Assembly: GCF_000701685.1 (NCBI RefSeq)
Contig: NZ_JNJO01000001.1
Span: forward strand, 124,001-188,000
Origin: Gemella sanguinis ATCC 700632
GTDB lineage: Bacteria > Bacillota > Bacilli > Staphylococcales > Gemellaceae
Length of the DNA stretch: 64,000 nt
Reading direction: 5' to 3'
Below, piece after piece: positions 2,976 to 23,405 of this stretch. Numbering within the stretch: position 1 is the first letter of the stretch; every line of letters starts with the position of its first letter. Made by a program: the position numbers and the translations under genes. The notes under the pieces were generated by a model, which saw only the letters and a list, made by a program, of their open reading frames with translations, had not been told where the DNA came from and made no database searches.

Positions 2976-3488
2976 CTATTTAGGTTTCTTTGATATTAAA
3001 GCTGAGAAATCCAAGTCATCATACTTAGATTTATTTAGTCCTGTCATAGAGTCAAAATCGACATTTGGGAAAAGTGGATCAAAATCTTCATCGTTAGTTT
3101 GTTGATTAACTGTTTCTTCGACTAAGGGCTTTTTAGAAATAAGTGATTTAATGTCTAAGTTATCATATTTATTCTCTTCGGAATTTTTATTAGTCATATT
3201 TTGAGGATATTCTATTTCAATACCTTCCATATTGCTAGTCGTTTGTTCCATTTCATTTTTATTATAAAATAGAACACCATATTCTTCTAACAATTCTTCT
3301 TTTGAATAATTTTTAAGTGGATCCTCAATAGGATTTATAGTATTTTCATAAATTGCCTTAACTATCTCATCATCTGTAAGAAGCTGTGAAGATTTAATAT
3401 CCCAAGATGAAATAATACTATCTAGTATATCTATTTGTTTTTCAGATAGTAGGGGAAGGATATTTTTAATTTTATTTATTTTATCCAT
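2976..3488 (-). CDS. Acidic protein of unknown function, translationally coupled to an HxlR regulator
   Basis: A 170-residue soluble acidic protein. Residues 1-80 look helical. The rest is low complexity and probably disordered. A motif KYD(N/D)LDxxxLISKKP occurs twice, near residue 110 and again at the extreme C-terminus. Its ATG overlaps the stop codon of the upstream regulator gene as TAATG, so translation is probably coupled. I do not recognise the family. The N-terminal pattern (ILPLLSEKQIDILDSII, then DDEIVKAIYE) could be an adaptor or small helical domain. It may modulate the regulator or simply share its transcript. Confidence 0.6.
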   Translation of the reverse strand: MDKINKIKNILPLLSEKQIDILDSIISSWDIKSSQLLTDDEIVKAIYENTINPIEDPLKNYSKEELLEEYGVLFYNKNEMEQTTSNMEGIEIEYPQNMTNKNSEENKYDNLDIKSLISKKPLVEETVNQQTNDEDFDPLFPNVDFDSMTGLNKSKYDDLDFSALISKKPK

Positions 3489-4666: not shown

Positions 4667-4912
4667 TATTCTGTTATATAGAAATTATAAAATTAACATT
4701 AAAATATACAAAAAATATTGATATATTATTTTTTATATTAAAGGGATTATAATGATAATAAGTTAACTTATGAATATATTTAAAAAGGGTTAACTTTAAT
4801 AAATTTTAAAATATTTGTCATATAGTTGTAAGCGTTTGAGCATAAATATTGAAGCGCATTTATAAATGTGTTAATATTTGAGAAAATAAGACGCATAAGG
4901 AGACGTAAAATT
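4667..4912 (+). other. AT-rich leader of the aldehyde dehydrogenase gene
   Basis: No coding sequence is seen. A -10-like TATAAT lies at 4748-4753. TGTAAGCGTTTGAG at 4827-4840 matches the first ten positions of a catabolite-responsive element but not the rest, so CcpA control is only a weak possibility. AAGGAG at 4897-4902 serves the dehydrogenase start. Confidence 0.3.
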
Positions 4913-6391
4913 ATGAGTAAATTAAATAAAGAAAATTACAAAATGTTTATTAATGGGGAGTGGGTTGATTCAGAAGATAAACTAGTATTAAAAGCATATA
5001 ACCCTGCAAACTCAGAATATTTAGCAAACTTCCCAGATGCAACTGAAGGAGACGTAAATCGCGCAGTTGAAGCAGCTCAAGAGGCATTCAAAACTTGGAA
5101 AAAAACAACAGTAAGTGAACGTGCAGCATTATTAAACAAAATTGCTGATATTATTGATGAAAATACTGATTTATTAGCTACTACAGAAAGTTTAGACAAC
5201 GGTAAACCAATACGTGAAACTAAAGCTGTAGACGTACCATTAAGTGCTAAACATTTTAGATATTTCGCAGGTTGTATTTTAGCTGATGAAGGGCAAGCAA
5301 CTGTATTAGAAGAAAAACTCTTAAGCTTAGTATTAAGAGAACCTATCGGGGTAGTAGGACAAATTATTCCTTGGAACTTCCCATTCTTAATGGCTGCTTG
5401 GAAAATTGCTCCAGCATTAGCTGCAGGTAATACAATCGTTATTAAACCATCAAGCTTAACTTCACTAAGCTTACTAACATTTGTTGAATTAATTAAAGAT
5501 GTACTTCCAAAAGGTGTATTAAACGTAGTAACTGGACGTGGAAGTAAATCTGGGGAATACCTAAAAAATCATGAAGGATTAAATAAACTAGCATTCACAG
5601 GTTCTACAGAAATTGGTAAGAAAATCGCTGTGGCAGCTGCAGAAAAATTAATTCCAGCTACATTAGAATTAGGAGGAAAATCAGCTAACATTATCTTAGA
5701 TGATGCTGATATCGAAAAAGCATTAGATGGTGCTCAACTTGGTATCTTATTCAACCAAGGACAAGTATGTTGTGCTGGTTCAAGAATCTTTGTTCAAGAA
5801 GGAATCTACGATGAGTTCGTATCTAAAGTAAAAGAAAGATTCAATAAAATTAAAATTGGTGATCCATTAGATCCAAATACTCAAATGGGTAGCCAAATCG
5901 ATGAAAAACAAGCAGAAAAAATTGTTAACTACGTAGAAATTGCTAAAAAAGAAGGTGGAGAAGTTCTTGTTGGTGGAGAACGTTACACTGAAAATGGATG
6001 TGATAAAGGTGCTTTCGTAAAACCTACATTAATTACTGGTGTTAACAATGGTTGCCGTATCTCTCAAGAAGAAGTATTCGGACCAGTTTCTGTAATTATT
6101 AAATTCAAAACTGATGAAGAAGTTATTGAACAAGCAAACGATAGTGAATATGGTCTAGCAGGAGCAGTGTTCTCTAAAAACATCACTAGAGCACTTAATA
6201 TTGCTCGTAGCGTAGAAACAGGAAGAATGTGGGTTAACACTTATAACCAAATTCCTGAACATGCTCCATTTGGAGGATACAAAAAATCAGGTATCGGACG
6301 TGAAACTCACAAAGTTATTTTAGAACACTACTCACAAATGAAAAATATCTTAATCGATCTTTCAGATGATGTATCAGGATTCTATAGCTAA
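4913..6391 (+). CDS. NAD(P)-dependent aldehyde dehydrogenase
   Basis: This 492-residue protein is a full-length ALDH-superfamily enzyme that oxidises an aldehyde to its acid. The cofactor domain shows PWNFP (153-157), KPSS (178-181) and FTGSTEIGK (228-236). General base Glu252 is in LELGGKSAN, and nucleophile Cys286 is in NQGQVCCAGSR. EEVFGPV and the C-terminal APFGGYKKSGIGRE complete the signature. The ATG at 4913 has AAGGAG 10 bases upstream; a GTG further upstream lacks support. It resembles broad-specificity acetaldehyde or betaine-aldehyde-like enzymes, but the substrate cannot be fixed. It is monocistronic, bounded by a strong terminator. Confidence 0.88.
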   Translation: MSKLNKENYKMFINGEWVDSEDKLVLKAYNPANSEYLANFPDATEGDVNRAVEAAQEAFKTWKKTTVSERAALLNKIADIIDENTDLLATTESLDNGKPIRETKAVDVPLSAKHFRYFAGCILADEGQATVLEEKLLSLVLREPIGVVGQIIPWNFPFLMAAWKIAPALAAGNTIVIKPSSLTSLSLLTFVELIKDVLPKGVLNVVTGRGSKSGEYLKNHEGLNKLAFTGSTEIGKKIAVAAAEKLIPATLELGGKSANIILDDADIEKALDGAQLGILFNQGQVCCAGSRIFVQEGIYDEFVSKVKERFNKIKIGDPLDPNTQMGSQIDEKQAEKIVNYVEIAKKEGGEVLVGGERYTENGCDKGAFVKPTLITGVNNGCRISQEEVFGPVSVIIKFKTDEEVIEQANDSEYGLAGAVFSKNITRALNIARSVETGRMWVNTYNQIPEHAPFGGYKKSGIGRETHKVILEHYSQMKNILIDLSDDVSGFYS

Positions 6392-6411
6392 TATGTAATT
6401 TAAAAGTAAGT

Positions 6412-6447
6412 AAAAAGGTTCTTAGTTTTAGACTAGGAACCTTTTTT
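6412..6447 (+). terminator. Terminator after the aldehyde dehydrogenase gene
   Basis: AAAAAGGTTCTTAGT pairs with CTAGGAACCTTTTTT, giving a long stem with a short TTTAGA loop and a T run. Confidence 0.85.
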
Positions 6448-6857
6448 ATATATTTATATAAGAAAAGTATCCATAAAAAAGTTTTTTTGAAAAAGAAAAA
6501 ATTATAAAAAGAAGATTAGCTTTATATTAGACTTGAATACTTATTTAAATAAATTTTATTAAATTATAAATTAATATACGTGTTTGCTAATTACTGAAAA
6601 TATGTTACAATATATTAAAATATATATTTTTAGTGAGGACAGTTTTTAGACTATGTATCTTTTTAAAAAGTAGTATTTGATTAAAATAATATTATATATA
6701 TTATTATTGTTATTATTATAATTTTATTTAAATTTTTGATTTTAATATCTTAATTTAAATATTAAGAAATTAGAATATTATTATGATTGAAGAAATTAAA
6801 TAAAGATATATAACCTAAAATCTCTTTACTAAAATAAAGAAAGTAGGTAAATAAGTT
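6448..6857 (+). promoter_or_regulatory. Promoter and long leader of the lipoprotein array
   Basis: A 410-base AT-rich gap without a gene. TTGCTA (6584-6589), a 16-base spacer and an extended -10 (TGTTACAAT, -10 hexamer 6606-6611) make a good sigma-A promoter. About 230 bases of untranslated leader would precede the first lipoprotein gene. I saw no second clear promoter inside the array, so it may be one long transcript. Confidence 0.55.
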
Positions 6858-7619
6858 ATGAAAAAACAAATCTTTGCCGTTATAGTGGGTTTAACGGTGG
6901 TACTAAGTGGTTGTGCTAAACAGGGTACAAAAAACACGGAGAGTACAGAAAGTATGTTACAAGAGGTAAAGAAAGATACTAAAGAAATTAAATCAGGAAA
7001 AGTATCGATATCTATGTTAGCAAAAGGTGAAAAATCAAACTCTGGTACTAACTTTGAGCTAAGCGGTGATGAAAAATTCGAACCAACAGAAGCTGCATTG
7101 AAAGGAAAATTTTCTAAAAATAGTAATGAAATTATTGTAGAAGATTACATCAAGGATGGTTATTATTACACTAAGAGTACTGTAGGTTCTAAATCAGTTT
7201 GGCAAAAGTCTAAGGCCCCAGGCAAAAATGAAAATGTATTTGATTTTAAAGATATGTCTCTAAATATGAATGATGAAATTCTAAGTTTACTAGATAATAA
7301 GGATAACTGGGATATATCTAAAGATGGAGATAAAGTAACGTTTAAATTGAAGAAAAATGATGATATGAAAGCACTAGTTCAACTAGCTTACGATCATGCA
7401 TTTGATAATAATGAAATATTTGCTGAATTCGACTACAATTTGGAATATGTATATAATACAAAATCTAGAAATGTTGAGAAATTAGTATATGAGTATAATA
7501 GAAAAAGGTATGGTTCAGGTGCAAGAGTTATAGCTAAAGGTACTTTAGAGGAAATTAATAAAGAGGTAAAAGTTGTATTACCTGAAGAAAGTAAAACTGC
7601 TAGAGAAGCTAGGGAGTAA
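6858..7619 (+). CDS. Array lipoprotein 1 of 9 (unknown family)
   Basis: A 253-residue lipoprotein: a short charged start, a hydrophobic stretch and lipobox VLSGC with Cys19. The mature part begins with a Thr/Ser-rich linker, then ESMLQEVKKDTKEIKSGK. Array-wide blocks follow: SGDEKFEP, YIKDGYYYTKS, LLDNKDNWDISKDGDKVTF and near the end GTLEEINKEVKVVLPEESK. It is the most divergent member together with number 9; both have FEP where most others have FDP, and both have an extra Asn/Thr/Ser linker after the lipobox. The gap to copy 2 is 135 bases, twice the usual, and contains an imperfect hairpin (CTAATAC/GTATTAG, 7643-7676). It should sit on the outer face of the membrane. Function unknown. Confidence 0.8.
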   Translation: MKKQIFAVIVGLTVVLSGCAKQGTKNTESTESMLQEVKKDTKEIKSGKVSISMLAKGEKSNSGTNFELSGDEKFEPTEAALKGKFSKNSNEIIVEDYIKDGYYYTKSTVGSKSVWQKSKAPGKNENVFDFKDMSLNMNDEILSLLDNKDNWDISKDGDKVTFKLKKNDDMKALVQLAYDHAFDNNEIFAEFDYNLEYVYNTKSRNVEKLVYEYNRKRYGSGARVIAKGTLEEINKEVKVVLPEESKTAREARE

Positions 7620-7754
7620 CATAGATAAATATCAAAAATATTCTAATACATGCTTAAGAAATATGTTTAGTATTAGCAGTAATTACTAGGGATATTATCC
7701 TAAAGAGCAATATAGTTAAGGAAAGTTACTATTAGGAAAGCAGGTAAATAATTT

Positions 7755-8504
7755 ATGAGAAAACAAATTTTAGCCGTTATGGTAGGTCTATCTGTAGCAT
7801 TAGCTGGGTGTAGTACGCAGAGTACAGAAAGTATGTTGCAAGAAGTAAAGAAGGATACAAAAGAAATTAAGTCAGGAAAGGCATCAATAGCATTAATATT
7901 AAAAAATGAGGATTCATCTAGCGGTGACGGATATGAGATGAGCGGTGATGAAAAGTTTGATCCACTTGAATTTAAGATGAGTGGTAAGTTTTTAGGGGTA
8001 GGTAAAGGCCTAGAAGTAGAAAGATATCGTAAAGATGGTGTCGATTATACTAAGTCTATTGTTAGTGTTAACCCTATCTGGACCAAAGAAAAAAGATCAA
8101 CAGATAATAAGCATGCTTTAAGTTTTAAAACAGAATCACTGAATACAGAAGATAGTATTTTAGAGTTGTTGGATAATAAAGATAACTGGGACGTTACAAA
8201 AGATGGAGATAAAGTAACATTTAAATTAAAGAAAAATGCTGAATTGGCAGATAAAGTTAAGAAGTCACAGATTAAGATAGCTAAAATAAAAGAGGAAGTA
8301 AAATTTTCTGAATTTGATTATACTATAGAATATGTATTTAATACTAAATCTAAAAATATAGAGAAGTTAGCATATGAAATAAATGGTAAAGTTGATGCTA
8401 CATCTTCAAATTTAATATCTAAAGGTTCATTAGAAGAAATTAATAAAGAAGTGAAAATTGAATTACCTGAAGAAAGTAAAACTGCAATCGAAATGGATAA
8501 ATAA
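7755..8504 (+). CDS. Array lipoprotein 2 of 9
   Basis: A 249-residue paralog with lipobox ALAGC (Cys19), the only copy with Ala-Leu-Ala before the Gly-Cys. The variable centre (about residues 43-135) is subtype A (LEVERYRKDGVDYTKS). It is unusual in having Arg in place of Asp in the conserved E-D-Y position and a longer lysine-rich stretch (KSQIKIAKIKEEVKFSEF) after the LKKNAEL block. The C-terminal EEINKEVKIELPEESK is conserved. The leader AGGAAAGCAGGTAAATAATTT before the ATG matches the array-wide leader in degenerate form. Confidence 0.8.
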   Translation: MRKQILAVMVGLSVALAGCSTQSTESMLQEVKKDTKEIKSGKASIALILKNEDSSSGDGYEMSGDEKFDPLEFKMSGKFLGVGKGLEVERYRKDGVDYTKSIVSVNPIWTKEKRSTDNKHALSFKTESLNTEDSILELLDNKDNWDVTKDGDKVTFKLKKNAELADKVKKSQIKIAKIKEEVKFSEFDYTIEYVFNTKSKNIEKLAYEINGKVDATSSNLISKGSLEEINKEVKIELPEESKTAIEMDK

Positions 8505-8574
8505 AAATACTATAAATAAAATGATAATAAAAGAGAAACAGTTTTAATTTAAAAAGAAAGTAGGTAAATAAATT

Positions 8575-9324
8575 ATGAGAAAGCAGATTATAGGTGTAAT
8601 GCTAGGTTTATCTGTAGTGTTAAGTGGATGTAGTACACAGAGTACAGAAAGTATGCTACAAGAAGTAAAGAAAGATGTTAAAGAAATAAAGTCTGGAAAG
8701 GTAGCAATATCGATGTCTTCGACAGATGAAGAAAATAGATCTATTGGTTATGAATTAAATGGGGATGAGAAGTTTGATCCAACAGAATATAAGTTAAAGG
8801 GAATATATAAACAAGTAGGAAAAGACTCTGATGTAGAACTATATCTTAAAGATGGAGTAAAATTTTTAAAGCTTAATGTTGGCGGTGAATCTCGTTGGGG
8901 TAAAAATAAACTTTCACCAGGGGATCGTGAGCTTTTTAATTTCAAAAATAATGCATTTAATATGCAAGATAGTATTTTGAATTTATTAGATAATAAGGAT
9001 AACTGGGAAGCTATAAAAGAAGGAGATAAAGTAACATTTAAGTTGAAGAAAAATGATGAAGCGAAGAAGAAGGTAGAGGAAGAGTACCTTAAAACAGTTG
9101 AAGATGATGATGGGGGAACAGTTAAATTTTCTGAATTTGAGTATAAAATAGAATATGTATTTAATACGAAAACTAAAAAGATAGAGAAGATACTTTATGA
9201 AATTAGTGGTACATCTGATGATACATCAAAAATAATTTCTAAAGGTTCAATAGAAGAAATCGATAAAGAAGTAAAAATTGAAGTACCAGAAGAAAGTAAA
9301 AAAGCAAAAGAAATGAGAAGTTAA
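8575..9324 (+). CDS. Array lipoprotein 3 of 9 (subtype B)
   Basis: A 249-residue paralog with lipobox VLSGC (Cys19) and signal type MRKQIIGVMLGLSVV. Its centre belongs to a second subtype shared only with copy 5: SSTDEENRSIGYELNGDEKF, GKDSDVELYLKDG, RWGKNKLSPG and FKNNAFNMQDSILNLLDNKDNW. The segment after the core is also subtype-specific (KKKVEEEYLKTVEDDDGG, then ISGTSDDTSKIISKGS). The ends are as in all other copies. The strong split between shared ends and a swapped middle points to recombination among copies. Confidence 0.8.
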   Translation: MRKQIIGVMLGLSVVLSGCSTQSTESMLQEVKKDVKEIKSGKVAISMSSTDEENRSIGYELNGDEKFDPTEYKLKGIYKQVGKDSDVELYLKDGVKFLKLNVGGESRWGKNKLSPGDRELFNFKNNAFNMQDSILNLLDNKDNWEAIKEGDKVTFKLKKNDEAKKKVEEEYLKTVEDDDGGTVKFSEFEYKIEYVFNTKTKKIEKILYEISGTSDDTSKIISKGSIEEIDKEVKIEVPEESKKAKEMRS

Positions 9325-9394
9325 AACTGTAATAATTTAAGTAATAAAAAAAAGAATACAGTGTTAATTTAAAAAGAACGTAGGTAAATAAATT

Positions 9395-10144
9395 ATGAGA
9401 AAACAAATTTTAGCCGTTATGGTAGGTCTATCAGTAGTGTTAAGTGGATGTAGTTCGCAGAGTACAGAAAGTATGCTACAAGAAGTAAAGAAGGATACTA
9501 AGGAAATTAAATCTGGGAAAGTAACATTGTCATTATCGTTAAGTGATGAAAAAGAAGGGTCAAAAGGGAATACTGGTTATGAGATGAGTGGTGATGAAAA
9601 GTTTGATCCACTAGAACTTAAAATGAATGGTAAGTTTTCAGGCTTAGGAAAAGGTCTAGAAGTAGAAGATTATATTAAAGATGGGGTTTATTATACTAAG
9701 AATGGTGTAGGTAGCAAAGCTATTTGGTTTAAGAAAAAAGTATCAACAGATAACAAGCATGCTTTAAGTTTTAAATCAGAATCATTAAATATGAATGATG
9801 ATATTTTAAATTTATTAGATAATAAAGATAATTGGGATGTTACAAAAGATGGAGATAAAGTAACATTTAAATTAAAGAAAACTGATGAATTAAAGAATAA
9901 GGTTAAGGAAATACACAATAAGGAACTAAAAAAAGACTTAAAATTTTCTGAGTTCGATTACAATATAGAATATGTATTTAATAAGAAAACTAATGATGTA
10001 GAAAAGTTATACTTTGAAATAAGCACTAAGACTGAAGGTACAACATCTAAAGCAACAAATAAAGGTTCTCTAGAAGAAATCAATAAAGAAGTTAATATTG
10101 AATTACCTGAAGAAAGTAAAAAAGCACTTGAGATGTTGGCTTAA
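9395..10144 (+). CDS. Array lipoprotein 4 of 9 (subtype A)
   Basis: A 249-residue paralog that serves as a good reference for the array. Lipobox VLSGC ends at Cys19; STESMLQEVKKDTKEIKSGK spans 23-42, SGDEKFDP 65-72, YIKDGVYY 93-100, the core LLDNKDNWDVTKDGDKVTF starts at 140, EFDYNIEYVFN covers 186-196, and KGSLEEINKEV with ELPEESK closes at 223-242. The first 34 bases after the ATG are essentially the same as in copy 2. The alternation of charged and hydrophobic residues suggests an all-beta mature domain, but I do not recognise a named family. Confidence 0.82.
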   Translation: MRKQILAVMVGLSVVLSGCSSQSTESMLQEVKKDTKEIKSGKVTLSLSLSDEKEGSKGNTGYEMSGDEKFDPLELKMNGKFSGLGKGLEVEDYIKDGVYYTKNGVGSKAIWFKKKVSTDNKHALSFKSESLNMNDDILNLLDNKDNWDVTKDGDKVTFKLKKTDELKNKVKEIHNKELKKDLKFSEFDYNIEYVFNKKTNDVEKLYFEISTKTEGTTSKATNKGSLEEINKEVNIELPEESKKALEMLA

Positions 10145-10214
10145 AATATTATAAATTAGGAAAAAATTAAAAATAACGCACTAATTATTAAAATAGAAAG
10201 AAGGTAAATAAGTT

Positions 10215-10955
10215 ATGAGAAAACAAATTTTAGTTGTAATGTTAGGGCTGTCTGTAGTGTTAAGTGGATGTAGTTCGCAGAGTACAGAAAGTATGCTACA
10301 AGAAGTAAAGAAAGATGCCAAAGAAATAAAGTCTGGTAAACTTACAACATCAATGTCTTCAACAGACAAAGTTAATAAGCCTATTGGTTATAATATTAGC
10401 GGTGATGAGAAATTTGATCAAATAGAATATAATCTAAAGGGTACATTTAAACAAGACGGTAAAGATTCTGATGTAGAAATATATATTAAAGATGGGGTAG
10501 AATATCTTAAATTTAGTGTTGGTTCAAGATATCGTTGGGCTAAAAGTAAACTTACACAAGGTAGCCGTGAGCCTTTCAATTTCAAAAAAAATGCATTTAA
10601 TATGCAAGATAGTATTTTAAACTTATTAGATAATAAAGATAACTGGGATGTTACAAAAGATGGTGATAAAGTAACATTTAAGTTGAAAAAAAATGATGAA
10701 ACGAAGAAGAAGGTAGAGGAAGAATACCTAAAGACAGTTAAAAATAATGATGGGAAAGCAGTGAAGTTTTCTGAGTTCGATTATACAATTGAATATGTAT
10801 TTAATACGAAGACTAAAGACATAGAGAAGTTAGCATATGAAATTAGTGGTGCATCTGATGATAATTCAAAAATAATATCAAAAGGTTCATTAGAAGAAAT
10901 TAATAAAGAAGTTAACATAGTATTACCAGAGGAAAGTAAAAATGCTGTTGAATAA
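10215..10955 (+). CDS. Array lipoprotein 5 of 9 (subtype B)
   Basis: A 246-residue paralog with Cys19 in VLSGC. The signal sequence MRKQILVVMLGLSVV looks hybrid: the start resembles the ILAVMVG type and the rest the IIGVMLG type. The centre is subtype B like copy 3 (SSTDKVNKPIGYNISGDEKF, GKDSDVEIYIKDG, FKKNAFNMQDSILNLLDNKDNW), and the post-core segment KKKVEEEYLKTVKNNDGK also matches copy 3. The tail ends shortly after LPEESKNAVE, without the basic C-terminal residues of its neighbours. Confidence 0.8.
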   Translation: MRKQILVVMLGLSVVLSGCSSQSTESMLQEVKKDAKEIKSGKLTTSMSSTDKVNKPIGYNISGDEKFDQIEYNLKGTFKQDGKDSDVEIYIKDGVEYLKFSVGSRYRWAKSKLTQGSREPFNFKKNAFNMQDSILNLLDNKDNWDVTKDGDKVTFKLKKNDETKKKVEEEYLKTVKNNDGKAVKFSEFDYTIEYVFNTKTKDIEKLAYEISGASDDNSKIISKGSLEEINKEVNIVLPEESKNAVE

Positions 10956-11033
10956 AAATATAATACTTAAGAAAGTTAGAAGATAAATAAAAATAAATAT
11001 TTCCAATAAAAAGAAAGTAGGTCAAATAAACTT

Positions 11034-11801
11034 ATGAAAAAACAAATATTAGCCGTAATGGTAGGTTTATCTATAGTCTTAAGTGGTTGTAGTTTTCAAA
11101 GTACAGAAAGTATGTTACAAGAAGTAAAGAAGGATACTAAAGAAGTAAAATCAGGCAAAGTAACAATGATGATGAAAATAGAAAATGAAAAAAATGGTTC
11201 ATCAGATATCTCTGGTTATGAGGAAAGTGGCGATGAAAAGTTTGATCCGCTAGAATTTAAGAGGATAGGTAAGACTTTTCGGGCAGATAAAAACCATGAA
11301 ACTGAAATATATATTAAGGATGGGATGTATTATAATGCGATTAATATAGGTCATAAAAAACTATTTTTTAAAGATAATGCGACTACAGATAAAAAACAAG
11401 CTTATAGTTTTAAAGACCGTGCATTAATTATGAAAGATGGTATTTTGAATTTATTAGATAATAAAGATAATTGGGATGTTACAAAAGATGGGGATAAAGT
11501 AACATTTAAATTAAAGAAAACTGATGAGTTGAAAAATAAGGTAATAGAGGCGCACTATGATAAAGTTGATGAGCAAAAAAAATCTTCTGAGTTTGATTAT
11601 ACGATTGAATATGTATATAATAAAAAAACTAAGGATATAGAGAAGTTGGTATATGAGTTAAAAACTAAAAGTGAGGGTTCAAATAAAAGAATAACAACTA
11701 AAGGTTCTTTAGAAGAAATCAATAAAGAAGTTAATATTGAATTACCTGAAGAAAGTAAAAGTGCAATTGAACTGAAGCAGAAAAACACAGTTCTTGTATA
11801 A
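11034..11801 (+). CDS. Array lipoprotein 6 of 9 (3' end fused to spacer)
   Basis: A 255-residue paralog with lipobox VLSGC (Cys19). The subtype A centre is divergent (RADKNHETEIYIKDGMYYNAINIGHKKLFFKDNATTDKKQAYSF, written here in part). After LPEESKSAIELKQ it ends in KNTVLV, which no other copy has. The bases encoding this tail (around 11775-11801) resemble the conserved spacer sequence found between other copies, so the stop was probably lost by a deletion that fused the coding end to the spacer. Only 23 bases separate it from copy 7, against 60-78 for most gaps. Confidence 0.78.
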   Translation: MKKQILAVMVGLSIVLSGCSFQSTESMLQEVKKDTKEVKSGKVTMMMKIENEKNGSSDISGYEESGDEKFDPLEFKRIGKTFRADKNHETEIYIKDGMYYNAINIGHKKLFFKDNATTDKKQAYSFKDRALIMKDGILNLLDNKDNWDVTKDGDKVTFKLKKTDELKNKVIEAHYDKVDEQKKSSEFDYTIEYVYNKKTKDIEKLVYELKTKSEGSNKRITTKGSLEEINKEVNIELPEESKSAIELKQKNTVLV

Positions 11802-11824
11802 AAAAGAAAGTAGGTAAATAAGGT

Positions 11825-12586
11825 ATGAAAAAACAAATTATAGGTGTAATGCTAGGTCTATCTGTAGTGTTAAGTGGGTGTAGTTCGCAGAGTACAGAAA
11901 GTATGCTACAAGAAGTTAAGAAGGATACTAAAGAAATCAAGTCTGGGAAGGTAACAATGGTACTATCAATAAGCGATGAAAATAGTAGTTCATTGGATAA
12001 TATAAATTATGTAATGAGTGGAGAAGAGAAATTTGATCCACTAGAGCTTAAAATGAATGGTCAATTTACAAGGTTAGGTAGAAGTCTTGAAATAGAAGAT
12101 TACATTAAAGATGGAGTACACTATTCTAAGACTAGAATTGGAGGTAAATCGACTTGGTCTAAGAAAAAAGGTCAGACGGATAATAATCATGCATTAAGCT
12201 TCAAATCAGAATCAATAAATATGCAAGAGGGAACTTTAAATTTATTAGATAATAAAGATAACTGGGATATAATAAAAGATGGTGACAAAGTAACATTCAA
12301 GTTAAAGAAAACTGATGAATTGAAGAATAAGGTTAAGGAAATACATCTTAATAGAATTAAGCAAGAAGCAAAATTTACTGAGTCCAACTATAATTTTGAC
12401 TATAATATAGAATATGTATTTAATACGAAAACTAAAGATGTTGAAAAATTAGCTTATGAGATAACTATTAAGACTGAAGGAACAGCTTCTAAAGCGACAA
12501 CTAAAGGTTCTTTAGAAGAAATTAATAAAGAAGTTAAAGTTGAACTGCCTGAAGAAAGTAAAAATGCCATTGAAGAGGGCAAATAA
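11825..12586 (+). CDS. Array lipoprotein 7 of 9 (subtype A)
   Basis: A 253-residue paralog. Its first 100 or so bases, including signal MKKQIIGVMLGLSVVLSGC, are nearly identical to those of copy 8. Distinctive points are SGEEKFDP instead of SGDEKFDP, and a longer C-terminal strand region (FTESNYNFDYNIEYVFN) that looks like a small internal duplication of the usual FDY element. The core LLDNKDNWDIIKDGDKVTF and the end EEINKEVKVELPEESK are retained. Confidence 0.8.
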   Translation: MKKQIIGVMLGLSVVLSGCSSQSTESMLQEVKKDTKEIKSGKVTMVLSISDENSSSLDNINYVMSGEEKFDPLELKMNGQFTRLGRSLEIEDYIKDGVHYSKTRIGGKSTWSKKKGQTDNNHALSFKSESINMQEGTLNLLDNKDNWDIIKDGDKVTFKLKKTDELKNKVKEIHLNRIKQEAKFTESNYNFDYNIEYVFNTKTKDVEKLAYEITIKTEGTASKATTKGSLEEINKEVKVELPEESKNAIEEGK

Positions 12587-12646
12587 AATAATTGAAGTGA
12601 TATTAATAAAATAGTATTAAATTAAAAGAAAGTAGGTAAACAAGGT

Positions 12647-13396
12647 ATGAAAAAACAAATTATAGGTGTAATGCTAGGTCTATCTGTAGTGTTAAGTGGG
12701 TGTAGTTCGCAGAGTACAGAAAGTATGCTACAAGAAGTTAAGAAGGATACTAAAGAGGTAAAATCTGGAAAAGCAACAATGATGTTATCAATAAAAAATG
12801 AAAATAACAGTTCCGCGGGTAGCTCGGGTTATGAAGTGAGTGGTGATGAAAAGTTTGATCCACTAGAGTTTAAGATGAATGGTAAGTTTTTCCAGGGAGA
12901 TAAAAGTAATGAAATAGAAGACTATATTAAAGATGGAGTTTACTATATTAAAAGTAATATAGCTTCTAAAACAGTTTGGTACAAAGAAAAAGTCCCTACA
13001 GATAACAAACATGCTTTGAACTTTAAGGATCAATCAATAAGTATGCAAGAGGGTATTTTAAATTTATTAGATAATAAAGATAACTGGGATGTAACAAAAG
13101 ATGGAGATAAAGTAACATTCAAGTTAAAGAAAACTGATGAGTTAAAGAATAAGGTAATAGAGGAACGAATTAAAAAAACTACGAAACAAGTTAAGTTTTC
13201 TGAGTTTGACTACACGATTGAATATGTATTTAATACGAAAACTAAGGATATAGAGAAAATTGTATCTGAATTAAACTTTAAAACAGAAGGTTCAACTACA
13301 AAAGGAACGATTAAAGGTTCATTAGAAGAAATTAATAAAGAAGTTAAAATTGAAGTACCAGAAGAAAGTAAAAGTGCAGTAGAATTAAAGAAATAA
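12647..13396 (+). CDS. Array lipoprotein 8 of 9 (subtype A)
   Basis: A 249-residue paralog with signal and lipobox as in copy 7 (Cys19). The centre is subtype A (KFFQGDKSNEIEDYIKDGV, VWYKEKVPTDNKHALNF), followed by the conserved core and a lysine-rich segment (EERIKKTTKQVKFSEFDY) that resembles copy 9. This suggests that the downstream half is related to copy 9 and the upstream end to copy 7. The end block is EEINKEVKIEVPEESK; the variant VPEESK is shared with copy 3. Confidence 0.8.
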   Translation: MKKQIIGVMLGLSVVLSGCSSQSTESMLQEVKKDTKEVKSGKATMMLSIKNENNSSAGSSGYEVSGDEKFDPLEFKMNGKFFQGDKSNEIEDYIKDGVYYIKSNIASKTVWYKEKVPTDNKHALNFKDQSISMQEGILNLLDNKDNWDVTKDGDKVTFKLKKTDELKNKVIEERIKKTTKQVKFSEFDYTIEYVFNTKTKDIEKIVSELNFKTEGSTTKGTIKGSLEEINKEVKIEVPEESKSAVELKK

Positions 13397-13464
13397 AAAG
13401 AATAGATTTTAGTAAAAACTGAAAATCACAGTATTTATTTAAATAGAAAGTAGGTCAAATTGTT

Positions 13465-14244
13465 ATGAGAAAGCAAATTTTAGCCGTCATGGTAGGTTTA
13501 ACGGTAATTTTAGGTGGTTGTAGCAAGCAGAGTTCACAAAATACAGAAAGTACCGATAGTAATCAAAATATTGAAAATATGTTACAAGAAGTAAAGAAAG
13601 ATACTAAAGAAATTAAGTCAGGTAAGGCGCATATAATGTTGTCTATTTCTAGTGATAATACAGATAAAGCATATGGTTATGAAATGAGCGGAGATGAAAA
13701 GTTTGAACCATTAGAACTTGCAATGAAGGGGAAAATTATAACTCCAAGTAAAAATACTGAAGTAGAAGATTATATAAAAGACGGTGTTTACTATATTAAG
13801 ACAAAACTTGATAACGGTTCTGCTTGGTTTAAAAAGAAAGGTCCAACTGATAACAAGCATGTACTTAGCTTCAAAACAGAATCATTAAATACTAAAGATG
13901 AAATTTTAAATTTATTAGATAACAAAGATAACTGGGATATAACAAAAGATGGTGATAAAGTAACATTCAGGTTAAAGAAAACTGATGAGCTGAAAAATAA
14001 GGTTAAAGAGGAACGCTCTAAAAAAACTGAGAAGAAAGTAAAGTATTCTGATTTTGATTATACTATAGAATATGTTTTTAATACGAAAACTAATGATGTA
14101 GAGAAGTTAGTATATGAGCTACATACTAAAACTGAGGGTTCAACTTCAAAATCACTAGATAAAGGTTCTTTAGAGGAAATCAATAAAGAAGTAAAAATAG
14201 AATTACCTGAGGAAAGTAAAAAGGCTATTGAAAGAAACGAATAA
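13465..14244 (+). CDS. Array lipoprotein 9 of 9
   Basis: A 259-residue paralog, the longest copy. Lipobox ILGGC has Cys19. An inserted polar linker (SSQNTESTDSNQNIENMLQE) follows it, comparable only to the linker in copy 1. It also shares FEP in the SGDEKFEP block with copy 1. The core reads LLDNKDNWDITKDGDKVTF, with Arg replacing Lys just after it. The tail KGSLEEINKEVKIELPEESK is standard. The outer copies 1 and 9 being alike suggests that the array grew by duplication between them. Confidence 0.8.
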   Translation: MRKQILAVMVGLTVILGGCSKQSSQNTESTDSNQNIENMLQEVKKDTKEIKSGKAHIMLSISSDNTDKAYGYEMSGDEKFEPLELAMKGKIITPSKNTEVEDYIKDGVYYIKTKLDNGSAWFKKKGPTDNKHVLSFKTESLNTKDEILNLLDNKDNWDITKDGDKVTFRLKKTDELKNKVKEERSKKTEKKVKYSDFDYTIEYVFNTKTNDVEKLVYELHTKTEGSTSKSLDKGSLEEINKEVKIELPEESKKAIERNE

Positions 14245-14270
14245 AATAAAAGAAAAATAAAATAATATTA

Positions 14271-14302
14271 AAAAAAGGTTTCACATATGTGAAGCCTTTT
14301 TT
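14271..14302 (+). terminator. Terminator of the lipoprotein array
   Basis: GGTTTCACAT (14277-14286) pairs with ATGTGAAGCC (14287-14296), with flanking A and T runs. It is the only strong terminator seen in the array region. Confidence 0.85.
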
Positions 14303-14905
14303 AAAAAACTGGAAAAGTAGAGTTTAGGGAATGAAAGACTTAAGATCTATATAAATATGCTATTAAATTATAATATATAAATTTAAAAATACTTATTATA
14401 TGTTAGAAACAGATATAAGTTTAATAAATACTGTGAAAATTTAAAAATAGTATTTATTAAATATTCTTTAATAATACAGATGACAACAGTTAATGATATA
14501 AACTATGTAATAGCATAATAATTAATAAATCAAAATATTTTTTTTAATAAACTAAAGTATTGAGTGATAACTAAAATTTATGATTTTCAAAAAAATAATA
14601 AGTTATTAAAATAATTGTAATAAAATTAATCAAAAGTTAAATAATTGTATATACATGATATTACATATAATATAGGGTGAATAGATAGTAAGTATAAAAA
14701 ATTTTACTAATATATGAAAAGAATATTTATTAAATTAGATGTAGAGTGATAAATTAAACATTTTAAAATATTATGGGGAATAGATATTTTATTATTAAAG
14801 TATAAAAATATATTATCTATGATAATCTTAAAATCTTGACAATTTATTAGTTTGCATTTATAATTAAGATATAAGTTAAGTGTTATATAACAAGGAGGTT
14901 AATAA
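14303..14905 (+). promoter_or_regulatory. Long AT-rich gap ending in a consensus promoter for the sulfur module
   Basis: About 600 bases hold no gene I can support. Near the right end TTGACA (14836-14841), a 17-base spacer and TATAAT (14859-14864) form a perfect consensus sigma-A promoter about 25 bases before the ribosome binding site AAGGAGG. No CsoR/CstR-like operator could be recognised. The rest is simple AT-rich sequence. Confidence 0.65.
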
Positions 14906-16180
14906 ATGAGTAAAAGAGTAGAAATGTATTTATCACTAATACTTATAGTATTAATTTTATTATTTGGTAGATTTTATTTATCAACAGATATGTTGTTTTT
15001 TAGATTGATAGTAGGAGTTAGCTTAGGGTATGTTTTAACAAGAGCATATATGGGTTTTGCAGGTAGTGTTAATAGGGCATATAACACTGGTTCTACTAGA
15101 TTAATGAGAACTTTGATGTTAATGTTTTTTTTAACATCACTATTTTCTACAGCAGTACTTTTTAACGATGATGCGACTAAGTTTGATTTATGGGTAAATC
15201 CAATTAATCTTGGATTAATTCTAGGTGGAATACTATTTGGTTTTGGAATGTCGTTTTCTTGTTGTTGTGCATCTGGAGTATTAACAGATTTAGCAAGCTC
15301 ATTTCCAAGAGCAATGATTACTTTATTATTTTTCTGCTTAGGAGTATTTATTGGATTTCCAATTCAAAATACACAAAGTTGGATTACAGAGAGTTGGTTT
15401 TCAACTGAAACTGGAACAAAAATTGGGACAAAAGGTGTATATTTTCCAGATTTATTTAAATTTGATGGGATGCAGGGTTATCTAGGAGCTGTTATCTTTA
15501 CAGGTATTTTATGTTTAATAGTCGTCTATATTTCTAATTTATATGAAAATAAACGTAAAACTAGTGGGACCTATGTTGGATTTTTAAGTGAGAAAGTCCA
15601 AGATTTTGAGAGTAAGAAAGAATTAGAAAGTAGAGAAAAAAATATTGAGTATACAGGGTATTATGATAGATTATTTGTTAAACCTTGGGATTTGAAAACT
15701 GGTGCGTTTATTATTTCAGGGATATTTGTATTGTTAATGGGTATAACAAAAGCTGGTTGGGGTGCCAGTACTCCTTATGGATTATGGTTCGGAAAACTCC
15801 TAATGGTGTTTGGTGTATCGACAGATTCAATATCAAGTTTCACAGAGATGTCAGCTAAACCATTTGTATTACCGTTTTTTGAACACCCAATTAATGTTCA
15901 AAATGTTGGAATATTTTTAGGAGCCTTATTATATTTATTAAGTGCAAAAATATTCAAAAAAACCGTATCATTAGAATGGAGAATCTCTCCTAAATTAGGG
16001 ATGTTTTATGCCTTAGGGGGGTTATGTATGGGATTTGGAACTCGTCTTGCTAATGGATGTAATGTTGGGGCACTATATACTCCAATAGCCAATTTTTCAT
16101 TGTCAGGATGGATATTCCTAATATTTTTAGTGCTAGGAGGTGTCATAGGCAATACTGTAGCAAAAAGAGCAAATATTTAA
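14906..16180 (+). CDS. YeeE/YedE-family sulfur-compound transporter (first of pair)
   Basis: A 424-residue polytopic membrane protein with about ten hydrophobic helices in two similar halves. Family cysteines are present: Cys119-Cys121 in FSCCCASGVL in the first half and Cys385 in LANGCNVGALYTP in the second. In the YeeE/YedE (TsuA) family such cysteines pass thiosulfate or related sulfane-sulfur compounds through the membrane. It is the first gene of an operon with a second paralog and a CoA-disulfide reductase/rhodanese fusion, which supports import of a sulfane-sulfur compound. The triple cysteine is unusual compared with the GGCASG of its paralog. Confidence 0.82.
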   Translation: MSKRVEMYLSLILIVLILLFGRFYLSTDMLFFRLIVGVSLGYVLTRAYMGFAGSVNRAYNTGSTRLMRTLMLMFFLTSLFSTAVLFNDDATKFDLWVNPINLGLILGGILFGFGMSFSCCCASGVLTDLASSFPRAMITLLFFCLGVFIGFPIQNTQSWITESWFSTETGTKIGTKGVYFPDLFKFDGMQGYLGAVIFTGILCLIVVYISNLYENKRKTSGTYVGFLSEKVQDFESKKELESREKNIEYTGYYDRLFVKPWDLKTGAFIISGIFVLLMGITKAGWGASTPYGLWFGKLLMVFGVSTDSISSFTEMSAKPFVLPFFEHPINVQNVGIFLGALLYLLSAKIFKKTVSLEWRISPKLGMFYALGGLCMGFGTRLANGCNVGALYTPIANFSLSGWIFLIFLVLGGVIGNTVAKRANI

Positions 16181-16233
16181 TCAAAAAAATAAGGGGAAAG
16201 TTAATGAAAATATTATAGAGGGAGATTGTAAAA

Positions 16234-17544
16234 ATGAATACTGGAGAATTTTCTAAAAAGTTTAATAAAGTTCAACCAATTATTGGGTTTGTGATATTAC
16301 TACTGATGGTATTATTTGCATATAAGTTACATACCCCAAAATTAATTTTCGGTCTTTTAGCAGGATTGGGATTTGGATATACGCTTACTAGATCAAGATT
16401 TGGTTTTGCTGGAGGGATAAAGAGAATTTACGTTAGAGGAGAAGGAAGTCTTACAAAAGCTCTACTTATTAGTTTTGCAGTAATAACATTAATTTATGGA
16501 GCTATTCAGTGGACTGCTAGTACAAAAGGTGCTCTACCAGCATTTTTAGCGAAAAATGGAGAAACGATAATACCAGGTACTCAGAATGTATTTATGACAA
16601 ATATAGGTACTGTTATAGGTGGATTCGTTTTTGGTATAGGTATGATTATAGCCGGAGGTTGTGCGTCAGGAACATTAGCTGATTTTGGTGAAGGTGAAGG
16701 GCATGCGTTAATTGCATTTCCATTCTTTATCTTGGGAACTATCCCTGGGCATTTTTTAAGAGAAGTTATTGATAGAAATCCTATAGGGAAAGTTGGAGTC
16801 CGTGGTCATTTACCTCAATATTTTGGTTATTTTGGAGCTATAGTAGTCACTTTATTAGGCCTACTATTATTATATATTCTTGCTAAAAAATATGAGAATA
16901 AACGAAAACAAGAAGGTACATATTTAAATCCAGAATCAGATTATGAAGATTTTGAAAAAGAACTTAGTGATAATTTAGATGTAAAACCATGGGGATGGGC
17001 TTTATATCATAAAATATTTGTGGAAAGATGGAGTTTTAAAACAGGAGCGTTTACTCTAGCTATCATATCTGGATGTTACTTGATTTTTAATAATAAAGCG
17101 TGGGGGGTAACGTCAGCTTTTACACATATTGCCGTTTGGTTTTTAGGCTTATTTGGAATTCATTTTAATGATAAAGCATTTGATTCTGTTTATAAAGCAA
17201 TCTCACATGGTATACTTACTGATGCTGGGGTGATTCTCGATATAGGAATAGTAGTAGGATCATTTTTAGCATTTTTATTAGCAGGAAGATTTAAATTAAG
17301 TCTACAATTTAATTCAACTAACGCCATGTTGTTTGGGCTAGGTGGTTTATTTATGGGATTTGGTTCTCGTCTTGCAAAAGGTTGTAATATAGGGGCTCTA
17401 TATTCTTCATTGCCTAACTTTTCGATTTCAGGTTGGGTGTTCTTGGTTGCTATTTCATTAGGAGCTGTTGCTGGATTAAAACTATTTAAAGGAAAATCTT
17501 GTTTAATTCCACCAAGACATAGAGATAGAAAAGATTTTAAATAA
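16234..17544 (+). CDS. YeeE/YedE-family sulfur-compound transporter (second of pair)
   Basis: A 436-residue paralog of the preceding gene with the same two-half architecture. Cys143 is in AGGCASGTLADFGEGEGHA and Cys384 in LAKGCNIGALYSSLPNFSISGW. A cytoplasmic charged loop (about 220-260) separates the halves. AGGGAG-like ribosome binding sequence precedes the ATG. The two proteins may form a heteromer, or each may prefer a different sulfur compound; the sequence does not decide. It is followed 33 bases later by the CoA-disulfide-reductase-like gene. Confidence 0.82.
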   Translation: MNTGEFSKKFNKVQPIIGFVILLLMVLFAYKLHTPKLIFGLLAGLGFGYTLTRSRFGFAGGIKRIYVRGEGSLTKALLISFAVITLIYGAIQWTASTKGALPAFLAKNGETIIPGTQNVFMTNIGTVIGGFVFGIGMIIAGGCASGTLADFGEGEGHALIAFPFFILGTIPGHFLREVIDRNPIGKVGVRGHLPQYFGYFGAIVVTLLGLLLLYILAKKYENKRKQEGTYLNPESDYEDFEKELSDNLDVKPWGWALYHKIFVERWSFKTGAFTLAIISGCYLIFNNKAWGVTSAFTHIAVWFLGLFGIHFNDKAFDSVYKAISHGILTDAGVILDIGIVVGSFLAFLLAGRFKLSLQFNSTNAMLFGLGGLFMGFGSRLAKGCNIGALYSSLPNFSISGWVFLVAISLGAVAGLKLFKGKSCLIPPRHRDRKDFK

Positions 17545-17577
17545 ATAATTGACTATTAATAAGAGGAGGACTTTAAA

Positions 17578-19281
17578 ATGAGTAAAAAATATTTAGTAGT
17601 AGGGGGAGTTGCAGGTGGAATGTCTGCAGCTGCAAGAATAAGAAGATTAGATCCGTTTGCAGATATTCAAGTTTTCGAAAAAGGACCACATGTAAGTTTT
17701 TCAAACTGCTGTCTACCTTTCTATTTATCAGGTGTAGTTCCTACAGCAGATGATTTAATTTTAATGACACCAGAGCTTTTAAAAAGTCAATATAATTTGG
17801 ATGTAAAAGTTGAGCATGAAGTAGTGAAAATTAATAAGGAAGAAAAAACAATTACTATAAGAAAAGTAGACTCTGGAGAAGAATATGAAGAAAGCTATGA
17901 TAAATTAATATTATCGCCTGGAGCAAGGGCGATTCGACCTTCTTCAATAATAGGTGTAGATAGGGATAATGTATTTACAGTAAAAAATGTTGTTGATATT
18001 GACAGATTGAAAAAATACATAGACGAGAATAATATTGAAGATGTAGCTGTAATCGGTGGCGGATTTATCGGGCTTGAAGTTATGGAAAGTTTAAGAGAAG
18101 CTGGTAAAAATGTAACTTTAGTAGAAGGAACAGATCAAATTTTAGCTCCACTTGACTATGATTTAGTTCAAGTATTAAATAAAGAAATATATGATAAGGG
18201 AGTGACTTTATTATATAATGAAAAATTAGCTGAAGTAGCAGAAGAGAAAATTATTTTAGAGTCTGGCAAAGAAGTAAAAGCAGGAGTAGTTGTGTTAGCA
18301 ATAGGCGTTCTCCCTGAAGCAGGATTAGCAAAGGATGCTGAATTAGAATTTGGTGAAACTGGTGGGATTTTAGTGAATCATCATTATCAAACTAGTGATC
18401 CTGACATTTATGCTGTTGGAGATGCAATAGAAGTAACACACTTTATTACTAATAAAAAAGTTCGTTTAACTCTTGCAGGACCAGCACAACGTCAGGCACG
18501 AGCAGTAGCAGATCATATTTATGGAAGAACGTATAGAAATACTGGGGTAATAGGTTCCTCAGTAGTGAAAGTATTTGATTATAATGCAGCAAGCACCGGA
18601 CTTAATGAAAAAGATTGTAAAAAATTAGGTATTGACTATGATGTAGCCTATATAATCCCTAAAGATAAAGTTGGATTAATACCATCTGCTAACCCGATTC
18701 ATTTTAAACTGATTTTCCAAGTTCCGACAGGTCAAATATTGGGAGCACAATCAGTAGGTAAAGGAGCGGTAGATAAAAGGATAGATGTCATAGCTGCAAT
18801 GATTATGAATAGAGCTAATATAGAGGATTTAAAAGAGCTTGAATTGTGTTATTCACCTTATTTTACAACTGCAAAAGATGCTACAAATATGGCAGCATTA
18901 GTAGCCTGTAACTTATTAAATGGAGAGTATAAGCAAGTTAGAACTTGTGAAGTAAGAAGATTGGTTGAAGAAGGAGCATGTATTATTGACTCTAGGGAGA
19001 AAGAAGAATATGAAGAAGGGCATATTAAAGGGGCTTTAAATATTCCATTAAGTGAATTTAGAGATAGACTAGATGAGATACCAAAAGACAAACCAGTGTA
19101 TATACATTGCTTATCTTCGCAAAGAAGCTATTATATGGTTAGAGAACTGAATTTAAGGGGATTCAAAAATGTGGTAAATATTTCAGGTTCTTTCCTAGGT
19201 ATATCAATGTATGAATATTTCAATGATGTTACAACAGGGCGTGAACCAATAGTAACAAATTATAGATTTAATTTACTATAG
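17578..19281 (+). CDS. CoA-disulfide/persulfide reductase with C-terminal rhodanese domain
   Basis: A 567-residue flavoprotein. FAD-binding GGVAGGMSAAARIRR is at 9-23, redox Cys44 lies in VSFSNCCLPFY (as in CoA-disulfide reductases), and a NADH-binding GGGFIGLEVMESL follows near 159. The pyridine-nucleotide-disulfide dimerisation domain runs to about 450. Residues from about 455 form a rhodanese domain with Cys511 in VYIHCLSSQRSY. Such fusions (CoADR-RHD, also described as NADH-dependent persulfide reductases) reduce CoA polysulfides or persulfides and release sulfide. Together with the two upstream transporters this suggests uptake and reduction of sulfane sulfur. RBS AGGAGG is close to the ATG. 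Confidence 0.87.
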   Translation: MSKKYLVVGGVAGGMSAAARIRRLDPFADIQVFEKGPHVSFSNCCLPFYLSGVVPTADDLILMTPELLKSQYNLDVKVEHEVVKINKEEKTITIRKVDSGEEYEESYDKLILSPGARAIRPSSIIGVDRDNVFTVKNVVDIDRLKKYIDENNIEDVAVIGGGFIGLEVMESLREAGKNVTLVEGTDQILAPLDYDLVQVLNKEIYDKGVTLLYNEKLAEVAEEKIILESGKEVKAGVVVLAIGVLPEAGLAKDAELEFGETGGILVNHHYQTSDPDIYAVGDAIEVTHFITNKKVRLTLAGPAQRQARAVADHIYGRTYRNTGVIGSSVVKVFDYNAASTGLNEKDCKKLGIDYDVAYIIPKDKVGLIPSANPIHFKLIFQVPTGQILGAQSVGKGAVDKRIDVIAAMIMNRANIEDLKELELCYSPYFTTAKDATNMAALVACNLLNGEYKQVRTCEVRRLVEEGACIIDSREKEEYEEGHIKGALNIPLSEFRDRLDEIPKDKPVYIHCLSSQRSYYMVRELNLRGFKNVVNISGSFLGISMYEYFNDVTTGREPIVTNYRFNLL

Positions 19282-19295
19282 ATAACAAAAAAGTT

Positions 19296-19330
19296 CTAGA
19301 AGTAGGGTATTTATTCTACTTCTAGGATTT
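19296..19330 (+). terminator. Hairpin after the sulfur operon (weak terminator or attenuator)
   Basis: CTAGAAGTAG (19296-19305) pairs perfectly with CTACTTCTAG (19316-19325). Only GATTTT follows, so termination may be partial and allow read-through to the permease gene 18 bases later. Confidence 0.5.
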
Positions 19331-19347
19331 TGAATAAGGAGCTATGT

Positions 19348-20661: not shown

Positions 20662-20684
20662 TTTTAAAACTATATTTCTTTTTA
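20650..20684. terminator. Bidirectional terminator between permease and murF
   Basis: AAGAAATATAGTTTT pairs perfectly with AAAACTATATTTCTT, with T runs on both strands. It contains the permease stop codon. Confidence 0.8.
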
Positions 20685-20690
20685 GTTTAT

Positions 20691-23263: not shown

Positions 23264-23405
23264 CAAAAATATAAAGTAGAGTAGTTTTATATCTAATTTA
23301 AAAAGTTAATTTATTAATTTAATGCATGTTAATATTGTATTTTTGTAATATTAAATTTATAATAGAATATGTACAAAAATTGATATGAGTAGGAGGAAGA
23401 AAAGT

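Follow-up and report, generated by a model that had tools for sequence, protein, structure and literature searches.

Among the closest described systems to the locus reported here are the tandem paralogous lipoproteins of staphylococci, known as Lpl/Csa1, and, by predicted fold, the mycobacterial lipoproteins LprG, LprF and LppX. The locus itself is an array of nine lipoprotein genes in a stretch of 64,000 nucleotides (nt) from Gemella sanguinis ATCC 700632 (contig NZ_JNJO01000001.1, positions 124,001 to 188,000), which we refer to as the window and whose positions we count from its first letter. According to the passages cited, USA300 carries nine lpl genes (PMC5020093), staphylococcal lpp genes share 46%–82% identity among themselves and csa1 copy number changes by recombination (both PMC7360770), and lpl arrays have a part in immune stimulation and in invasion (PMC4470592). 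Passages of a 2016 review describe the Csa1A structure as a new structure family and state that exactly what Lpl and similar tandem lipoproteins do is unknown (PMC5020093). For the other group, the passages cited state that LolA-fold proteins share a pocket holding hydrophobic ligands (PMC6363788) and that LprG binds and transfers triacylglyceride (PMC4709180).

An intact array in one of nine Gemella species

Positions 6858–14244 of the window are filled by nine head-to-tail lipoprotein open reading frames (ORFs) on the + strand, all intact (0/9 interrupted) and 246–259 amino acids (aa) long (Table 1). Their starts are spaced by ∼790–900 nt, the nine copies are in register, and the leader upstream of the ATG is similar among the genes; a nine-copy array of this kind cannot be chance. 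Cys19 is preceded by L-[SAG]-G in all nine proteins. The lipobox and the nine same-direction tandem lipoproteins reported by a first-pass annotation of the window are confirmed. The array is real and intact, and it lies outside any named family. Of nine Gemella species compared, with one genome each (its own and eight others), a single one has it: a profile of the array (A1) gave nine strong matches in its own genome only, with one or two weak matches (E = 8.8e-14 to 1.7e-6) in each of the other eight, from which the array is absent.

A whole-length alignment of the nine proteins showed pairwise identities of 52%–76%, unevenly spread along the sequence. The conserved blocks are helix 1 (15 of 18 columns invariant), residues 142–166 (LLDNKDNWD...KLKK; 19 of 25) and the tail at residues 227–246 (13 of 20). 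The signal peptide (9/18) and residues 188–204 (7/17) are intermediate, and between these blocks lie the variable ones, at residues 49–123 (12/75), 124–141 (2/18), 167–187 (1/21) and 205–226 (3/22). The near-invariant LLDNKDNWD core and differing middle noted in the first-pass annotation are borne out, and the three motifs it listed as shared are common to most copies but not to all: ESMLQEVKK occurs in eight of nine (in gene 9 the linker is longer and leads into ENMLQEVKK), LLDNKDNWD in eight (the final residue is E in gene 3) and LPEESK in seven (VPEESK in genes 3 and 8). In gene 5 the profile match extends beyond the gene's own stop codon, since this copy is shorter by a few residues at its end.

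The array had also been described as framed by one promoter and one terminator, of which the terminator stands. The hairpin closing the array is strong by folding energy, though absent from the sites listed by a consensus scan. The candidate promoter, a weak match to the consensus, is plausible but unproven, as its type is no more frequent than in shuffled sequence (57 promoter-type sites in the consensus scan vs. 51.2 expected from shuffles, no excess). The consensus scan found no terminator-like sites between the genes of the array, which is weak evidence because the same scan missed the closing hairpin. The nine genes are probably co-transcribed.

Kinship with DUF6612 and a predicted lipid-carrier fold

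None of the nine proteins attains the cut-off of any Pfam or NCBIfam model, in line with the earlier view of an unrecognized family, and no match to a housekeeping family was found in these searches. The array is nevertheless not without kin. A search of 40 genomes with gene 4 gave matches in 12, its own included; all 14 match places outside the array (24%–30% identity) were also match places of PF20316 (DUF6612), and a Pfam scan of seven proteins (from five gene-4 match places, plus two tandem neighbors) found DUF6612 over its cut-off in 7/7. We then compared the mature parts of the array, profile to profile, with 14 DUF6612 lipoproteins of Gemella and its family, and obtained a probability of 98.1 over 224 columns and a score of 92.8 (E = 1.1e-13, for that single comparison). 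Controls scored at most 26.6 (200 column shuffles) and 15.0 (reversed template). From this match and its controls we conclude that the array is, at the level of sequence, a divergent branch beside (sister of) DUF6612, although the Pfam cut-off does not admit it to the family. PF20316 itself (curated cut-off 23.7 bits) was listed for 0/9 array proteins at E ≤ 10, and a whole-genome search with it (E ≤ 1) gave no match at the array. A tree built from 32 rows, 31 of them different, places the nine proteins together at one end of a long branch (2.41 and 0.91 on either side of the midpoint root), with support of 100/100.

The array proteins and the DUF6612 lipoproteins of Gemella have in common a lipoprotein signal, a length of ∼260 aa, corresponding secondary-structure elements, a full-length profile match, a "YIKDG"-like motif and a C-terminal N...LP.E.KNA.E motif, whereas their sequences are 24%–26% identical and separated by the long branch. 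A further likeness is to the SCO4651 family lipoprotein (NF053532), the best NCBIfam match of gene 9 over its first half (E = 8.9e-6), which also matches a DUF6612 protein of the same genome (E = 4.1e-8); the score of gene 9 is 25.5 bits, where the cut-off is 65. DUF7537, ComGF, cytochrome c551 and other Pfam and NCBIfam rows gave weak matches, many falling on the signal peptide, and were rejected. DUF6612 had no mention in the literature searched, which was limited to one paper collection.

AlphaFold was run on gene 1 with the nine-row alignment, and the best model had a predicted local distance difference test score (pLDDT) of 81 and a predicted template modelling score (pTM) of 0.76. It is a curved antiparallel sheet with helices, and its best structural neighbors are in the LolA/LprG-like fold superfamily (for a predicted, not a solved, structure). 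The top seven Foldseek matches were LprG chains (E from 1.3e-7, for 3mh8, to 1.5e-5), with LolA proteins and LprF (rank 10) next, S. aureus SAOUHSC_02783 at rank 16 and Csa1B at rank 23. VIA gave Z-scores of 11.0 for LprG (186 aligned, 4.3 Å), 10.5 for LprF and 9.5 for LppX. A model of a G. cuniculi DUF6612 protein (pLDDT 80) had the same solved neighbors (VIA Z 13.7 for LprG), and its elements correspond to those of the array model except for an extra helix (181–189) and the signal-peptide helix. Judging from these models, a LolA/LprG-type "clam" fold is very likely for the array proteins. A fold search of BFVD was discarded as meaningless (best E = 6.6e-4 at a template modelling [TM] score of 0.23). 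Sequence searches of solved structures yielded nothing useful: profile A1 gave chance rows at E of at least 0.29 (including neurotoxin fragments, ignored), profile A2 a best E of 0.15, and profile A6 an E of 0.34 or worse.

The likeness to LprG, LprF and LppX consists of the predicted fold and of a lipid-anchored position outside the cytoplasmic membrane. Identity to the array is 10%–18%, and the Pfam family LppX_LprAFG (which we take to be PF07161) was listed for none of the nine proteins at E ≤ 10, in a search whose HMMER filters drop most matches above ∼0.1. The array belongs to a bacterium without an outer membrane, unlike the mycobacterial hosts of these lipoproteins, and no gene near it was recognized as an LprG-type partner transporter.

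Like the staphylococcal proteins, the array is a tandem set of paralogous lipoproteins at the surface whose core is conserved; the resemblance in fold is weak, and no sequence relation was found. DUF576 (PF04507) matched 0/9 array proteins at E ≤ 10 and none of the nine Gemella genomes; as a control, the same search matched 3/10 other genomes of the same order, with 12 matches in one of them (G031). The first-pass annotation was right that the proteins are not Lpl-like in sequence, and its oral or mucosal bacterium fits the genus, as Gemella lives on mucosae. The Foldseek matches to Csa1 were weak: for the array model, Csa1B (4big) at E = 4.2e-3 and TM 0.24–0.28; for the DUF6612 model, Csa1B at E = 5.3e-4 and TM 0.31–0.37, and Csa1A at E = 6.3e-3. 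Csa1 chains were not among the best 50 VIA rows for either model. We regard the relation as one of similar layout and, possibly, of a common fold.

Divergence of the copies and their possible role

The nonsynonymous substitution rate (dN) was lower than the synonymous rate (dS) in 36/36 pairs of array genes, with dS of 0.54–1.75. By these rates the paralogues are under purifying selection and, given such dS values, are old duplicates; no positive selection was seen in the 36 pairs, dS being high. The first-pass annotation had hypothesized a variable surface family; the copies compared here, all from one genome, are old and constrained. The start of genes 7 and 8 stands apart, with differences at 0/104 compared sites against at least 10 in the other 35 pairs. 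Codons for the same residue are identical at 35/35 in this tract, and the permutation p-value was 0.001 (the minimum for 1000 permutations), or ∼0.04 after correction for 36 pairs, which suggests one conversion or recombination event. Pairs 4–6, 4–7 and 3–6 also had p < 0.05 in the conversion scan, before that correction. A tract in genes 4 and 5 (p = 0.001) was dropped, as six other pairs differ at 2/54 sites over the same interval and pair 7–8 at none.

We also asked how variability is placed on the predicted strands. Over 107 strand columns it increases with hydropathy (rho = 0.31, p = 0.001). The more hydrophobic face was the more variable one in five of strands 1–6 by entropy (sign-flip p = 0.031); over all strands this was so in 7/11 by entropy (p = 0.036) and 6/11 by BLOSUM (p = 0.077). 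On the predicted fold, this is a hint, not proof, of pocket diversification among the copies.

These results led us to propose, at roughly even chances of being right, that the array is a set of lipid-binding lipoproteins at the surface, specific to this lineage, whose pockets have diversified. The acylated Cys19 would tether the nine lipoproteins to the outer face of the cell membrane, and each mature domain would be a clam in which helices close a hydrophobic cavity over a curved antiparallel sheet. The set would be a far-diverged, lineage-specific branch beside DUF6612, a family carried by all nine Gemella genomes examined, and tandem duplication with some conversion between neighbors would have produced it, probably as a co-transcribed unit. 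Helix 1, the LLDNKDNWD...KLKK core and the C-terminal tail would have stayed fixed as the first six strands and other segments diverged. At the cell surface the proteins may bind lipids or other hydrophobic molecules (in uptake, transfer or buffering), and the preferred ligand may differ between copies.

Several points weigh against this proposal. The other four of the five gene 1 models had a pLDDT of 50–63, the gene 1 model was built from nine close paralogues, and the alignment behind the G. cuniculi model consisted of three Gemella relatives and five window proteins. Foldseek TM-scores to LprG are moderate (0.42–0.56), and the array proteins pass no Pfam or NCBIfam cut-off. A shared fold is no proof of function; RseB, MucB and VioE have this fold but other roles. 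The pocket-face result is weak: by BLOSUM dissimilarity the count for strands 1–6 falls to 4/6 (p = 0.094), the strand subset was chosen after looking, and the cavity-facing side was guessed from hydropathy, not taken from coordinates.

The main rival to lipid binding is host interaction. By analogy with Lpl/Csa1, the array would face the host through TLR2 stimulation or host-protein binding, and recombination would change copy number and so vary dose and antigenicity. The layout is similar to that of the staphylococcal arrays in gene number (PMC5020093) and in mutual identity (PMC7360770), as far as the cited passages describe them, and the weak Csa1B matches of both the array protein and its DUF6612 relative, the conversion tract between genes 7 and 8 and the absence of the array from the other eight Gemella genomes are all in keeping with such a role. 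Yet there is no DUF576 sequence match, and the copies are old and constrained, unlike a recent amplification. We hold this explanation to be rather unlikely.

A role in envelope-stress sensing is suggested by analogy with the LolA-fold regulators RseB and MucB, the former being among the VIA matches of the array model (Z 6.8) and both among those of the DUF6612 model (Z 9.2 and 8.1, respectively). The copies would then signal damaged lipids or lipoproteins to a partner in the membrane, and the invariant charged segments could be the interface with it. This is very unlikely, since the nearest genes are neither an anti-sigma factor nor a sensor, nine copies would be hard to explain, and the best fold matches are lipid carriers. 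That near-equivalent copies are kept for dosage only, raising the amount of one lipid-binding lipoprotein, would suit the purifying selection in 36/36 pairs and the invariant core but is highly improbable, as identities down to 52%–76% with concentrated variable segments exceed what dosage selection would be expected to leave.

Beyond this locus, the lipid-binding proposal could be extended to tandem LolA/LprG-fold lipoprotein arrays as a recurrent surface "lipid-binding repertoire" of Gram-positive cocci. Gemella (with the array and a DUF6612 cluster) and Staphylococcus (with Csa1/Lpl) would each, independently, have enlarged a sequence family of its own within one clam fold, with copies that differ in ligand and array sizes that change by recombination. 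We consider this generalization unlikely as it stands. The predicted lipid-carrier fold of the Gemella array and its weak fold link to Csa1 nevertheless make a bound lipid worth seeking in tandem lipoproteins, and the array is a further case of lineage-specific lipoprotein expansion within the order that holds the DUF576 arrays.

Distribution of relatives and genomic site

Apart from the array, the G. sanguinis genome has nine PF20316 matches in eight ORFs (one ORF has two domains), so that array and DUF6612 genes together make 17 related genes in 1.8 Mb. Among the other Gemella, G005 has four matches, G001 and G006 two each, and the remaining five one each. Over 157 genomes of the order, 54 match PF20316 at E ≤ 0.001 and 48 pass the cut-off, with a maximum outside the array's genome of four (G005 and G012). 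In a class-wide sample PF20316 matched 174/398 genomes, with at most five copies outside the array's own genome among the best six candidates scored per genome (own genome therefore shows six). Profile A1 matched 5/398 genomes of that sample, its own included; the other four matches were weak (E = 2.2e-6 to 6.6e-5), and no other Gemella matched there.

One DUF6612 gene of the genome, on contig C19, is flanked by a PadR-like gene and glmS (named by eye). Other DUF6612 loci share these neighbors in part (PadR-like, glmS, or ORFs of matching size), and this site is probably the ancestral DUF6612 locus. Six of the eight DUF6612 ORFs form a second cluster ∼25 kb beyond the window (C1:213.5–220.8 kb; L039:8522–15822), which includes a 527-aa protein with two DUF6612 domains. 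A smaller tandem set, of four DUF6612 lipoproteins, was observed in another Gemella species (G005:C1:42.9–46.6 kb; L003).

Searches of viral contigs (profile A1) and of plasmids and phages (gene 4) gave no match, and so no indication that a known phage or plasmid carries the array. A profile A1 search of genome contigs, from which the array's own genome was possibly left out, gave no relative. No published description of such a Gemella array was found in the literature searched, again that one paper collection; the listed passages of PMC7136413 and PMC7530257 make no mention of one.

Table 1. Coordinates in the window of the array genes, their candidate signals and the bordering genes
Feature	Position	Strand	Remark
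Lipoprotein gene 1 (253 aa)	6858–7619	+	Most divergent copy
Lipoprotein gene 2 (249 aa)	7755–8504	+	
Lipoprotein gene 3 (249 aa)	8575–9324	+	
Lipoprotein gene 4 (249 aa)	9395–10144	+	Query for BLAST-type searches
Lipoprotein gene 5 (246 aa)	10215–10955	+	
Lipoprotein gene 6 (255 aa)	11034–11801	+	
Lipoprotein gene 7 (253 aa)	11825–12586	+	First ∼108 nt as gene 8
Lipoprotein gene 8 (249 aa)	12647–13396	+	First ∼108 nt as gene 7
Lipoprotein gene 9 (259 aa)	13465–14244	+	Longer linker past cysteine
Candidate promoter TTGCTA-16-TACAAT	6584–6611	+	TG before −10; 9/12 consensus match
Terminator-like hairpin closing the array	14271–14302	+	14 pairs, −17 kcal/mol, z −7.3
Aldehyde dehydrogenase	4868–6391		Upstream border of stretch
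Stretch between aldehyde dehydrogenase and murF (∼14 kb)	6392–20690		Contains array
murF	20691–22052	-	Far border of stretch

The site of the array is variable within the genus. The bordering aldehyde dehydrogenase was found at E ≤ 1e-100 in 6/9 Gemella genomes, the array's own included. In G007 it is followed directly by murF (84% identical to murF of the window), and the array therefore sits in a stretch that G007 lacks at that place. Either gain here or loss in G007 is compatible with this arrangement. By eye, the gene that follows the aldehyde dehydrogenase is Cas9-like in G004 and G005 (L078, L077) and ClpX-like in G001 and G006 (L079, L080).

The same stretch also holds an amino-acid permease and, at 14906–19281, two YeeE-type sulphur transporters and a pyridine-nucleotide disulphide oxidoreductase with a rhodanese domain. 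Just before these transporter genes, at 14836–14864, is a perfect sigma-70 consensus (TTGACA-17-TATAAT). For the first YeeE-like transporter, G. cuniculi (G004) is the only one of the other eight Gemella with a close relative (80%), which lies at another place; matches of 37%–38% occur in G001, G006 and G004. Elsewhere in the window, ORFs of 170 aa (2976–3488, − strand) and 276 aa (23385–24215, + strand) are without a Pfam match at E ≤ 0.001, and positions 30438–32090 encode an LPXTG-anchored protein that has SpaA/prealbumin-like and Big_8 domains and is of the pilin or adhesin type.

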